Shown here one piece after another: positions 2,578 to 52,931 of a stretch of DNA of 64,000 nucleotides (position 1 is its first letter; each line of letters opens with the position of its first letter). The notes beneath the pieces are model-generated. The model worked only from the letters and a program-made list of their open reading frames with translations. It was not told the DNA's origin and made no database searches. This DNA comes from Thermoanaerobaculia bacterium (GTDB taxonomy: Bacteria > Acidobacteriota > Thermoanaerobaculia > Gp7-AA8): contig JADGNY010000002.1 of the NCBI GenBank assembly GCA_017883235.1, forward strand, positions 62,001 to 126,000, in the 5' to 3' direction. The position numbers and the translations under genes were made by a program.

Positions 2578-4086
2578 ATGAAAACTCTGCGACCCGTCGT
2601 CACCGCGGTGATGTTCGTGTTCCTTTTGTGGCCGGTGGTTGGAAAGGCGGCTGCGCTGCCGAAACCGTCCGCCGCGTACGAGTGGCTGGACATCTCGCTC
2701 GAGGCGACGGCGCGCGAGGTCGATCGGCATGGGGCGCGGCCGACGATCATCTCGCGGACGCTGGCCATCGCTCTGACGGCGATGTATGACGCGTGGGCGG
2801 CGTATGACGACAAAGCGGTCGGGACGCGGCTGGGTGCGGCGTTGCGGCGGCCGGCGGGGGAGCGGACGCTGGCGAACAAGGAGAAGGCCATCGCCTATGC
2901 GACGTATCGGGCGTTGATCGATGTCTATCCCGAGGACAAGGCCTGGATCGATGAGCAGATGCGGGGGAAGGGATTCAATCCTGATGACGCATCGACCGAT
3001 CCCTCCACGCCGCAGGGCGTCGGCAATCTCGCGGCGCGGGCGGTCTGCGCCTACCGGCATCACGACGGGGCGAATCAGTTCGGCGATGAGGTCGGGTCGA
3101 ACGGCGTGCCGTACTCCGACTACACCTACTACGCGCCGGTGAACACGGTTGAGAAAGTCAACGATCCGAACCGGTGGCAGCCGATTCCGTTCGTCAATCC
3201 GAAGGGCGGCACCATCGCGCCGGGCTTCCTCACGCCGCATTGGTATCGGGTCAAGCCGTTCGCGCTCGATCGCAGCGATCAGTTCCGGCCTCCGGCCCCG
3301 CCGCGGGTGGACTCCGAGCGGTTGCGCAAAGAGACGGACGAGAACATCGCCTTGAACGCGGGTCTGACCCCGGAACAAAAAGCAACAGTTGAGTTCATGC
3401 GCGACGGGCCGCGCTCCACCGGCCAGTCGGGGCACTGGCTGAAGTTCGCGCAGCTCGTTTCGAAGCGCGACCACAACGACCTCGATCGCGATGTGAAGCT
3501 GTTCTTCACTGTCGGGAACGTGGCCATGGATGCCTTCATCGCCTGCTGGGAGGCGAAGCGCTACTACGACACCTCCCGCCCGTGGACGCTGGTTCGTTAC
3601 TACTACGCGGGAAAGAAGATCACCGGCTGGGCCGGGCCTGGCAAGGGGGTTGTCGAGCTGCCCGCCGAGGAGTGGCATCCGTATTCGCCGTTCACGTTCG
3701 TGACGCCGCCGTTCCCAGGCTACGTCTCGGGACACAGCACGGTGAGCGGGGCGTGTGCGAAGACGCTCGAGCTCTTTACGGGCAGCGACGTTTTCGGCGA
3801 GGTGGAGCGGCGCAAGGCCGGCGTCATCACCGAGGCGGATTTCGATTGCGCAACGATCCAGACTCGCGATGGGAAAACGGGCACGGCTGTGAACTGTGAC
3901 GTCGATTTGAAGATGCCGACATTCACCGCCACCGCGGAGATGGCAGGCATTTCACGGGTCATGGGCGGCTATCACATCCAGGCTGACAACGTCGAAGGCC
4001 TGGCCCTCGGGCGGAAGGTCGCGCAGTTCAGTTGGCCGCGCATCCGCGCCTACTTCGACGGGACTGCTCCGGCCGCGAAGGATTAG
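2578..4086 (+). CDS. vanadium-dependent haloperoxidase / PAP2-family enzyme
   Basis: This 502-residue secreted protein begins with a signal peptide (hydrophobic residues 9-24, then GKAAALP). The vanadate/phosphate-binding motifs of the haloperoxidase-PAP2 superfamily are all visible. There is an RPWTLVRY block near residue 337, PFPGYVSGHSTVSGA near 378-392 with the acid-base His, and SRVMGGYHIQADN near 459-471 with the second Arg/His pair. Length and the long N-terminal helical region fit bacterial vanadium haloperoxidase-like proteins, which either oxidise halides with peroxide or act as acid phosphatases; the sequence alone does not decide between them. The next gene starts four bases after the stop, so the two are probably co-transcribed. 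Confidence 0.85.
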   Translation: MKTLRPVVTAVMFVFLLWPVVGKAAALPKPSAAYEWLDISLEATAREVDRHGARPTIISRTLAIALTAMYDAWAAYDDKAVGTRLGAALRRPAGERTLANKEKAIAYATYRALIDVYPEDKAWIDEQMRGKGFNPDDASTDPSTPQGVGNLAARAVCAYRHHDGANQFGDEVGSNGVPYSDYTYYAPVNTVEKVNDPNRWQPIPFVNPKGGTIAPGFLTPHWYRVKPFALDRSDQFRPPAPPRVDSERLRKETDENIALNAGLTPEQKATVEFMRDGPRSTGQSGHWLKFAQLVSKRDHNDLDRDVKLFFTVGNVAMDAFIACWEAKRYYDTSRPWTLVRYYYAGKKITGWAGPGKGVVELPAEEWHPYSPFTFVTPPFPGYVSGHSTVSGACAKTLELFTGSDVFGEVERRKAGVITEADFDCATIQTRDGKTGTAVNCDVDLKMPTFTATAEMAGISRVMGGYHIQADNVEGLALGRKVAQFSWPRIRAYFDGTAPAAKD

Positions 4087-4090
4087 ATCG

Positions 4091-5380
4091 ATGAGCCGGC
4101 GCCTGCTCTGGTCGCTGCTGGTGATCATCGCGGCATTGGCGCTGGCCGTGGTCATCGTTCCGGCATGGGTGATCCAGCCCTTCCGGCCGCAGTCGCCGCG
4201 CGGATTGGAAGTCTCGTTCGCGCTGAAACGACTCGCGCCGTTCGTCACGATCGCGGCATTGCTCGCCTGCGTCGCATTGGTCGTGAAGCTGTGGCGCGGC
4301 GCGCGGTGGAGCAGGGTGTTTCTCGTCATCATCCTTCTGCCTCCGGCGGTCAGCGCATGGTTTGCGCGGCAGAACCACTTCGAGTGGATGTTCAACCCGC
4401 TGGCGAATGCCGGCTATGCGCGGGCGGATGCGGCATCGTTTGTCGGCGACGGCGATCTGGTCATGGCAGTGGCGCGGAACGGCGAGGCGGTTGCCTATCC
4501 CATCCGGCAGCTCGCCTATCACCATCTCGTGCAGGACACGGTTGGCCGCGTGCCGATCGTCGTCACCTATTGAACGCTCTGCCACACCGGTCTGGTGTGG
4601 GAGACGACGATCGACGGACGGACGCTCCATTTCCATCTCGCGGGGATCAACAACCAGAACTTCATCATGCGCGATGAGGAGACCGGCTCCTGGTGGCAGC
4701 AGGTCACCGGCGAGGCCATCCTCGGCCCGCTGAAAGGCCAGCGCCTGACACGGGTGCCTCAGGACGAGATTTCGTTCGTGCTCTGGAAGCGCGAGCAGCC
4801 GATGGGGCGTGTGTTGCGTCCCGATCCGCGCGCAGCGGCGGCAGGCCGTTACGCACCGGCGGATTGGGAGACGGGAATTGCAAAACTTCCCGTGGCCACG
4901 CGGATACGCGACCGGCGCCTCGATCTGCGCGAGCTGGTCGTTGGCGTAACCGTGAACGGCCACGCCAAGGCGTATCGAATGACCGACGTGCAGCAGCAGA
5001 ATCCGATCATCGATACGGTCGGCGGCGTTCCCCTCGTGATTGTGGTCGCCGTGGATGGTCATTCCGTGCGCGCGTTCTCGCGCATGGTCGATGGAAAGCC
5101 GGTCGATTTCTTCGCCAAACCGGAGGCAACGGTCCTGGTCGACACTGCGAGCGGCAGCGAGTGGGATTTCACCGGACGCGCGATTCGTGGCCCCCTGACC
5201 GGGCGTCAACTCGCGAAGATCGAGTTGCTTCGCGACTACTGGTTCGACTGGCGCGCGTATCACCCCGACACCACGATTTACAGCGCGGGGTTGCACACGG
5301 CGTTTTTCGTAGCCGGCTACCGCGCCATCCTGGTCAGCTCCACGAATGCCCGATCGTCCTTCATCGAAGCGAAGACGTAG
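4091..5380 (+). CDS. DUF3179 membrane protein, probable selenoprotein (UGA at codon 161)
   Basis: Read through one in-frame TGA at 4571-4573, this frame gives a 429-residue protein. The N-terminus has about three membrane helices (residues 5-25, 48-67, 74-92). The first DUF3179 domain then follows: AVAYPIRQLAYHHLVQDTVG, then VVTY-Sec-TLCHTGLVW, then a conserved tail including GSWWQQVTGEAILGPLKGQ. DUF3179 proteins normally have Cys-x-x-Cys after VTY; here the first Cys is the UGA and the second is C164, giving a Sec-x-x-Cys redox pair. A second, Cys-free DUF3179-like half follows (residues 275-415, IIDTVGGVPLV, WDFTGRAIRGPLTG). Homology and frame continue without a shift on both sides of the UGA, which argues against decay. 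Its last 64 bases overlap the convergent TPR gene. Confidence 0.82.
4574..4600 (+). promoter_or_regulatory. SECIS-like hairpin directly after the in-frame UGA
   Basis: Eight bases after the UGA lies a perfect hairpin at 4582-4600: a 7-bp stem CCACACC/GGTGTGG with the 5-base loop GGTCT. GGTCT is also the apical loop of the E. coli fdhF SECIS that SelB binds. The loop starts 15 bases after the UGA, near the short end of known bacterial spacings. The hairpin lies inside the coding sequence (residues CHTGLVW) as bacterial SECIS elements do. SelB binding is inference. Confidence 0.7.
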
Positions 5381-6995: not shown

Positions 6996-7043
6996 CCGGA
7001 TGGTGATCCGCTCACCCAGCGGTTTCATCACGAGAGTGGAGGG

Positions 7044-7112
7044 TTCGACTGGCGCGCGTACCACCCTGACACCGTGATTTACAGCGCCGGGCTGACCAGA
7101 CAGCGATCCTGA
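7044..7112 (+). pseudogene. remnant of a second DUF3179 gene 3' end
   Basis: The reading FDWRAYHPDTVIYSAGL at 7044-7094 repeats the C-terminal FDWRAYHPDTTIYSAGL of the intact DUF3179 gene (around 5250). The nucleotide match is close, with about four changes in 51 bases. It then runs into unrelated sequence and a TGA. Together with the permease remnant next to it, this shows that deletion or recombination took place here. Confidence 0.75.
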
Positions 7113-7147: not shown

Positions 7148-7428
7148 GATCTCCATAACCAAAGATCGGATCTGCATAGATCGAGTCGGGAATTACATAG
7201 ATCGACTTCGGAGCTAAATAGTTCCGCCGCGGAACTAAATAGGTCGTCCCGGGATCTAAATAGATCCGCTTGGGATATGAATAGTTCCTCTTCCGATCTA
7301 AATAGATCGCCTTCGGAACTAAATAGATCGTCTTCGGAACTAAATAGCTCCCGATCGGAACTAAATAGCTCCCGATCGGAACTAAATAGCTCCCGATCGG
7401 AACTAAATAGGTCGACTCCTGATCTATT
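7148..7428. repeat. 21-bp degenerate tandem array (about 13 units)
   Basis: Units of 21 bp follow each other with a conserved core AACTAAATAG and a variable 11-base part, such as ATCGTCTTCGG or CTCCCGATCGG. The last three units are nearly identical and the outer ones diverge. Both strands lack stop codons because 21 is a multiple of three, but there is no gene-like start. The array fills the gap between gene remnants and the next gene; the rest of 6736-7568 holds only those remnants and no other recognisable feature. Confidence 0.85.
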
Positions 7429-10920: not shown

Positions 10921-11562
10921 CCTGGGAGCGCGGGCGTCTCGCCAAGCGTCTCGCCCGCGCTACCGCCAGCGAAGCTGGCGTCTGGAGATTGGACGTTACG
11001 AGCGCGAACGCGGCACGTTTCGCCGGCTTCGCCCGGGCTGGGACCGGAATCGCATCAAATTGGACCGATACCGCTCCAAACGGACCGAAATCGCATCAAA
11101 TTGGACCGATGCCGCTCCAAATTGGACCGATGCCGCTCCAAATTGGACCGATGTCGCATCAGATTGATTCGATACCGCATCAAATTGGATCGATGCCGCA
11201 TCAAATTGGATCGATACCGCATCAAATTGGACCGATACCGCTCCAAATTGGACCGATACCGCTCCAAATTGGACCGATGCCGCATCAGATTGATTCGATA
11301 CCGCATCAAATTGGATCGATACCGCATCAAATTGGATCGATACCGCATCAAATTGGATCGATGCCGCATCAAGTCGGATCGATACCGCATCAGATTGGAT
11401 CGATGCCTCTCCAGAATGATCGAGTAACTGACTCTGGGAACGAGTCAACTGCTTCTGGTGAAACGGCTTACTGCCTCATTGCCACGAAGCCGGCTTGCAA
11501 ACAGCAGGATGCCGAACGTCAAACGCGGGCGAGACGCCTGGCGAGACGCCCGCGCTCCCAGG
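10921..11562. mobile_element. MITE-like element with 39-bp terminal inverted repeats
   Basis: The sequence 10921-10959 is the reverse complement of 11524-11562 with one mismatch in 39 bases. Each repeat is itself palindromic (GCGGGCGTCTCGCC ... GCGTCTCGCCCGCG). The interior holds a 21-bp tandem array and no convincing gene. No clear target-site duplication is seen. A shorter relative of the repeat lies at 62157-62283. The gap 10906-11596 contains nothing else. Confidence 0.75.
11043..11412. repeat. 21-bp degenerate tandem array (about 17 units)
   Basis: Units approximate GATACCGCATCAAATTGGATC with variation mainly at GATACC/GATGCC, GCATC/GCTCC and GGATC/GGACC. The period is exactly 21 bp and the reading frames are open on both strands as heptapeptide repeats, but no start or ribosome site goes with them. 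The period equals that of the arrays at 7148 and 52040, although the sequences differ. Confidence 0.9.
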
Positions 11563-52039: not shown

Positions 52040-52370
52040 TCGACGACGTCCTTGGACCTCAACCGAGCGTTCGTTGCCGTCACGCGAGCGGTTCGTTGTC
52101 GTCACGCGAGCATTCGTTCTCGTCACGCGAGCGGTTCGTTCTCGTGACGCGAGCCGTTCGTTCTCGTGACGCGAGCATTCGTTCTCGTCACGCGAGCGGT
52201 TCGTTGTCGTCACGCGAGCGTTCGTTTACCTCAACCGAGCGGTCGTTCGACCTCAACCCAGCCTTCGTTAACCTCAACCGAGAGGTCGTTTGACCTCAAC
52301 CGAGAGGTCGTTTGACCTCAACCGAGCGGTCGTTTGACCTCAACCGAGCCTTCGGCGAAGTCATCGAATA
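52040..52370. repeat. 21-22-bp degenerate tandem array, two unit types
   Basis: Units of type TCGTCACGCGAGCGGTTCGT dominate 52075-52225. Units of type ACCTCAACCGAGCGGTCGTT lie at 52055-52075 and 52225-52360. The period is 21-22 bp. No gene lies in 51989-53192; the rest of that gap is the dispersed repeat at 52382-52931 and about 260 bp without a recognisable feature. Confidence 0.8.
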
Positions 52371-52381
52371 GGTCCGACAAC

Positions 52382-52931
52382 GTCATCGAATGGGACGTTG
52401 AACCTCGGCGAACCCACGAATGTCAGCCCTTCGGACTTAACCGCGGTGCTGCCAGGATTTGCTCAACCCATGTTTCTTCAAACGCTTACGTAGATTCCCG
52501 AGGAGGCGTCCGATGTCGGTTCAGCGAACGATCGAAGGCCAGGTGATGGAAAACGCGCCACTTACGCTCGTCGCAACCTCGCCAATCAAAAATCGAAGGC
52601 CTGGTCCTCGCGGCTTTCGGTCAATGGGACGTTGAACCTCGGGAATCCACGAATGCCAACCCTCGGACTTAACTGCGGTGCTGCCCGGGTTTGCTTAACC
52701 CTTGTTTCTTCAAACGCTTACGTAGAGTCGTGGCGAAGCGTGCCGATGCCGTATCAGCGAACAATCGAAGGCCAGGTGATTGAAAACGCGCCACTTAACG
52801 TTCTTCACAACCTCGACCCGAACACCCGCATATCACTTGGTGATTGGCTGTAACGCATTCTAACAACTGCACTTACTGGATTTGAGAGTCCGCCAACCGA
52901 AAAAACGAAGGCCTGGCCCTTCGCGGCTGGT
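52382..52931. repeat. two imperfect copies of a long dispersed repeat
   Basis: Segments starting TGGGACGTTGAACCTCGG (52391 and 52624) run in parallel for about 180 bp through AACGCTTACGTAGA and GATCGAAGGCCAGGTGAT. Each is followed by a hairpin part such as CGAAGGCCTGGCCCTTCG (about 52580-52610 and 52868-52931). A contracted copy lies at 54083-54214, on the other side of the DUF3800 gene. Confidence 0.7.

Follow-up and report, generated by a model that had tools for sequence, protein, structure and literature searches.

A probable DUF3179 selenoprotein of Acidobacteriota with a Sec-x-x-Cys motif and a compact SECIS-like hairpin

What does an in-frame TGA mean when it falls exactly on the first cysteine codon of a protein family's CxxC motif, in a frame that is open on both sides of it? 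This question is raised by a gene of the DUF3179 family (PF11376) from a Thermoanaerobaculia bacterium, located within a 64,000-nucleotide stretch of contig JADGNY010000002.1 (assembly GCA_017883235.1), which is here called the window and to whose numbering all positions of the gene refer. The gene occupies positions 4091-5380 of the forward strand, and its frame is interrupted by one TGA alone, at 4571-4573, with 160 codons ahead of this TGA and 268 past it; read through, it would encode 429 residues with selenocysteine (Sec) at residue 161. A preliminary description of the locus placed the TGA at the first Cys of VTYCxxC and held that homology continues for the 268 codons beyond, and both the reading of the frame, where the motif is VTY[TGA]TLCHTG, and the family profile, which matches on either side of the codon, agree with it. 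The PF11376 match that spans the TGA reaches 221.8 bits (residues 106-394, profile positions 9-292), membership in DUF3179 requiring the gathering score of 27 bits, and the segment after the TGA scores 154 bits by itself. The CxxC-type motif (C/U-x-x-C/T/A) is present in the first of two repeats, and Cys codons occupy the aligned site in 47 other stretches. A genome search found DUF3179 a single time in the source genome. About 1.7 kb downstream of the gene, at 7042-7094, there is a 53-bp stretch (FDWRAYHPDTVIYSAGL) with 89% identity to the 3' end of the gene, apparently the leftover of a second copy.

The reading favoured here is that UGA 4571-4573 encodes selenocysteine and that 4091-5380 is a DUF3179 selenoprotein gene, to which we would assign, on comparative sequence evidence, a probability of roughly 95%. 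The search for selA, selB, selC and selD that had been suggested as a check returned all of them: the source genome (6.9 Mb in 246 contigs, listed as 100% complete) contains a gene for tRNA-Sec (anticodon UCA, 68.5 bits), SelB (352.7 bits), SelA (483.3 bits) and SelD (365.7 bits). The selD gene of the same genome (locus L014) has an in-frame TGA of its own, at TTGG[TGA]ACK, which we take to fit the known Sec/Cys site of SelD, and it is probably a second selenoprotein gene.

The comparison of relatives points in the same direction. A scan of genome_contigs yielded 62 loci, mainly from Acidobacteriota, plus two from Gemmatimonadota and several from Nannocystis, and all stretches of the window's subtype in this set that cover the codon have TGA. 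Further loci were added from a draw of 297 genomes from the phylum; among the 150 family stretches that cover the codon, some genomes being represented twice, it is TGA in 103, TGC in 39 and TGT in 8 (47 Cys codons in total), with no other codon encountered. An in-frame UGA that is aligned with Cys in homologues and has homology on both sides is one of the marks of a bacterial selenoprotein gene, and this is the pattern that the alignment of homologues, also called for in the preliminary description, returned: TGA in all same-subtype relatives, alternation with TGC or TGT elsewhere in the family, and a hairpin that is kept. A TGA-containing DUF3179 match was obtained in 46 genomes of the phylum draw; SelA lies over the cut-off in 43 of them, and the remaining three (G046, G080 and G140) have a tRNA-Sec at 69-71 bits, so that SelA or tRNA-Sec is present in 46 of 46. 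Among genomes with a TGA-free DUF3179 alone, 10 of 45 are without SelA over the cut-off (p = 5e-4 against the TGA genomes), a comparison based on hand-transcribed counts in which one of the ten SelA-less genomes, G266, is 72% complete, and in which the identity of the codon was read directly in the fetched stretches only rather than in every genome of the draw. In Nannocystis poenicansa (L069) two copies of the TGA plus hairpin lie about 660 bp apart, at ~4409 and ~5072 of that locus; the upstream copy has a second stop directly after the hairpin and looks broken.

The hairpin itself, the candidate SECIS element, lies at 4582-4600 of the forward strand and begins eight bases 3' of the TGA. It has a perfect 7-bp stem (CCACACC at 4582-4588 with GGTGTGG at 4594-4600) and a GGUCU loop (GGTCT in DNA, 4589-4593), as the preliminary description had it. 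The 40-nt fold is at -18.8 kcal/mol (z = -3.4), with one of 200 shuffles equally good, and of all 1826 TGA trinucleotides that the window contains, only 0.9% have a comparable hairpin after them. The bSECIS model specifies an apical loop of 3-9 nt with a G at loop position 1 or 2, an upper stem of 4-16 bp and a distance of 16-37 nt from the UGA (PMC13188914). The hairpin agrees with this model in stem and loop, and its spacing falls at the lower edge of the range: the 5-nt loop starts after 15 nt, a figure that becomes 16 nt when the G-U pair in the loop is counted. It had also been claimed that the fdhF SECIS of E. coli has GGTCT as its apical loop, and this is borne out by the fdhF sequence and its fold, since there too the hairpin stands directly 3' of the UGA with GGUCU at its apical loop. 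The two folds nevertheless differ, in that GGUCU starts 18 nt after the UGA in fdhF versus 15 nt in the DUF3179 gene, and the perfect 7-bp stem of the latter does not reproduce the bulged-U arrangement of fdhF as such.

Selection on this hairpin can be judged from synonymous sites. Across 62 Sec forms (median pairwise identity 48%, 102 conserved amino-acid columns) the seven strongest synonymous constraints are found at codons +1, +2 and +4 to +8 past the TGA (p = 9e-6). The stem pairs are retained at 93-100% in 68 non-redundant Sec forms of the window subtype, with both-sided changes at two of the pairs; covariation is modest in the test itself, as the choice of codons is limited by the protein motif HTGLVW. 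The comparison shows the hairpin to be under RNA-level selection, beyond the requirements of the protein. In the mechanism that these comparisons suggest, SelB and Sec-tRNA would decode UGA 4571-4573 as selenocysteine with the aid of the hairpin.

Two other explanations of the TGA have to be weighed against this evidence. In an assembly of 246 contigs, a TGA seen in a single gene could in principle be a nonsense mutation or a miscalled TGC or TGT, in which case the product would be truncated; yet every same-subtype relative in genome_contigs shares the TGA, both halves of the gene are conserved, and the synonymous sites past the codon are the most constrained of the gene, so that a pseudogene or sequencing error is rejected as having almost no probability. 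The other explanation, in which TGA would be read as an ordinary amino acid genome-wide under a recoded genetic code, might draw on the presence of an in-frame TGA in selD too, but that TGA falls on the Sec/Cys site of SelD. There is, moreover, no in-frame TGA inside the selA or selB match, and among 40 long ORFs of the window that were picked mechanically, 24 end in TGA. With TGA behaving as an ordinary stop elsewhere and absent from selA and selB, genome-wide recoding is dismissed as well, its likelihood being negligible.

If UGA 4571-4573 is a selenocysteine codon, it belongs to a family in which both the amino acid and the hairpin have a varied history. DUF3179 Sec forms other than those of the window subtype, such as AATW[TGA]PLANTGVVY, have their best hairpin centred 5 nt farther downstream, with loops (CGUGU or GU[UC]) about 20 nt past the UGA. 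This arrangement was seen in 17 of the 25 cases listed; among the eight that depart from it, two (L046 and L069) are truncated copies of the window subtype. Pairs at the downstream position are formed in 93% of cells in Sec forms versus 47% in Cys forms, and several compensatory pair types occur there. The family tree requires seven Sec/Cys changes, at least four of which are forced by well supported branches, and Sec has therefore been gained or lost repeatedly. The existence of two SECIS positions in different Sec lineages fits separate origins; it may instead be that one SECIS element shifted its position.

One such change can be followed within the window subtype, where six Cys orthologues (in genomes G094, G130, G155, G163, G171 and G233) carry TGC. 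All six genomes lack SelA and a clear tRNA-Sec, and SelB does not exceed the cut-off in any of them; in the tree, the Sec clade encloses the six orthologues. None of these has the GGU loop codon, which is present in 60 of 68 Sec forms (p = 1.6e-5), the innermost stem pair is gone in five of the six, and folding is weaker on average, although one orthologue (L146) still folds well. From the nested position, the machinery-free genomes and the degraded hairpin it follows that Cys replaced Sec in this lineage and that the hairpin decayed.

What kind of protein is specified by the gene? In the whole AlphaFold2 model, which has a mean pLDDT of 91, three helices at the N-terminus are followed by a beta domain in two copies. 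The helices, predicted to be transmembrane, comprise residues 3-27, 36-68 and 74-92 (4097-4366 for residues 3-92, forward strand as for the repeats). The first DUF3179 repeat (residues 106-250, 4406-4840) is modelled as a Rieske-like beta domain that holds Sec161, Cys164 and His165, and has a pLDDT of 94 when modelled separately; the second (residues 282-394, 4934-5272) is likewise modelled as a Rieske-like beta domain, without Cys. The second repeat is homologous to the first (hhalign 99.8%, E = 5e-29), and the motif is present in repeat 1 only. Helices 2 and 3 are joined by a strongly positive loop, and by the positive-inside rule this would place the DUF3179 domain outside the cytoplasm. 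Within the model, a strand of a beta-hairpin ends at Sec161, and the turn is made by the residues that follow.

Structure searches match the predicted fold of both repeats to that of Rieske [2Fe-2S] proteins and of NirD, and the 50 matches listed for repeat 1 look Rieske-type or NirD-like. In the structure search, the VIA Z to Rieske folds is at most 10.0 for the whole model or repeat 2 and at most 8.0 for repeat 1, and the Foldseek E-values of the Rieske matches are weak, at about 0.01-0.05. Profile comparison with seven Rieske domains gave a weak match for repeat 2 (E = 0.003, probability 10%) and none for repeat 1, and a sequence search of solved structures returned no match. Unlike in Rieske proteins, the DUF3179 domain is duplicated, and its Sec motif is modelled in a beta-hairpin turn, apparently off the cluster-ligand position. 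Cys60, Sec161 and Cys164 are the only Cys or Sec residues in the protein, and the Rieske cluster ligands (two Cys and two His in C-x-H and C-x-x-H boxes) are absent from its sequence; a standard Rieske cluster therefore cannot form, and an identity as a Rieske iron-sulphur protein was dropped.

The product would most likely be held in the inner membrane by its three helices, with the two predicted Rieske-like beta domains on the extracytoplasmic side. The first of these domains would place Sec161 and Cys164 in the beta-hairpin turn, where the selenol most likely serves as the redox nucleophile, with Cys164 supplying the resolving thiol. That the DUF3179 selenoprotein has an extracytoplasmic redox role is, in our judgement, somewhat better than an even bet. 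One observation bears directly on the chemistry: outside the window subtype, 18 of 28 Sec forms have another residue in place of the second motif Cys, versus 1 of 39 Cys forms (p = 2e-8, an optimistic value that counts related sequences and not independent events). Loss of the second Cys would hardly be tolerable for a two-Cys metal site but is tolerable for a selenol, and an extracytoplasmic selenol/thiol oxidoreductase is therefore favoured. It is conceivable that the protein is a selenoprotein whose motif is instead a metal-binding knuckle, composed of a CPxCG-like turn plus His144, since the CxxC does sit in a beta-hairpin turn of the model and most of the DUF3179 family retains His144, a conserved His of this kind occurring in some metal sites. 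Many Sec forms, however, keep just UxxA or UxxT, which leaves too few ligands, and Sec as a purely structural metal ligand is unusual; such a knuckle is thus considered unlikely. Less likely still is the suggestion, made in the preliminary description, that the neighbouring vanadium-haloperoxidase-like gene hints at peroxide or halogen chemistry shared with the DUF3179 gene. The neighbour is real: a vanadium-chloroperoxidase-like gene (DUF6851, VCPO second domain, PAP2) at 2578-4086 lies on the same strand with a 4-nt gap upstream of the DUF3179 gene, and the K-x6-R, SGH and R-x5-H active-site motifs of its product look intact by eye. The adjacency recurs in the two nearest relatives (L017 and L018), but it is confined to these three loci, even though 49 of the 59 related stretches compared contain at least 1.5 kb of upstream sequence. 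A conserved operon with this gene was accordingly rejected, and a joint function in peroxide or halogen chemistry seems very improbable.

The other recurrent neighbours, judged by eye, vary by lineage and include a response regulator, FG-GAP-type proteins and small membrane proteins, with no common partner gene seen across the related DUF3179 loci. Elsewhere in the window there are two tandem arrays of 21-bp units, at 7166-7426 and 11051-11404, which look related (AAATAGATC / AAATTGGATC) and lie outside clear genes, and a tandem-repeat cluster at 52064-52815 with periods of 22, 43, 65 and 232 bp.

A selenium form of DUF3179, whose novelty the preliminary description had left open, is supported here but has been tabulated before. 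A 2022 review (PMC9312934) lists a DUF3179 (PF11376) selenoprotein of the type UxxC/T with MBW1804167.1, a 2026 review (PMC13188914) lists one of the same type with MDJ0986319.1, and both cite Zhang and Gladyshev 2007, on an Olavius algarvensis symbiont, for it. The protein described here shares with the tabulated entry its PF11376 domain, Sec at the first motif position and the UxxC form; judged against the entries as tabulated, it differs in its three N-terminal helices and its distribution in Acidobacteriota, Gemmatimonadota and Nannocystis. A search for DUF3179/PF11376 in a full-text literature collection yielded no account of the fold, of the SECIS position or of Acidobacteriota, and no biochemical data on any DUF3179 protein. 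The following were not found described: a membrane-anchored subfamily with three helices that spans Acidobacteriota, Gemmatimonadota and Nannocystis; SECIS elements at two positions, separated by 5 nt, in different Sec lineages; a second Cys that is lost almost exclusively in Sec forms; and the predicted duplicated Rieske-like fold without cluster ligands.

Put together, and only tentatively, DUF3179 may be a duplicated Rieske-fold domain without Fe-S ligands that bears an extracytoplasmic selenol/thiol redox centre in a hairpin, and in which Sec was acquired or restored on more than one occasion, with SECIS hairpins at two positions in the gene. A first testable idea of the function of DUF3179 comes from its predicted fold, together with the disappearance of the second Cys from Sec forms. 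Genes such as this one are readily split or truncated by standard annotation, and what emerges is one widespread selenoprotein subfamily of the Acidobacteriota, with members in Gemmatimonadota and Nannocystis. Within it, the replacement of Sec by Cys, with decay of the hairpin in a lineage free of the Sec machinery, represents a clean natural experiment in which the cost of selenium can be set against its benefit.
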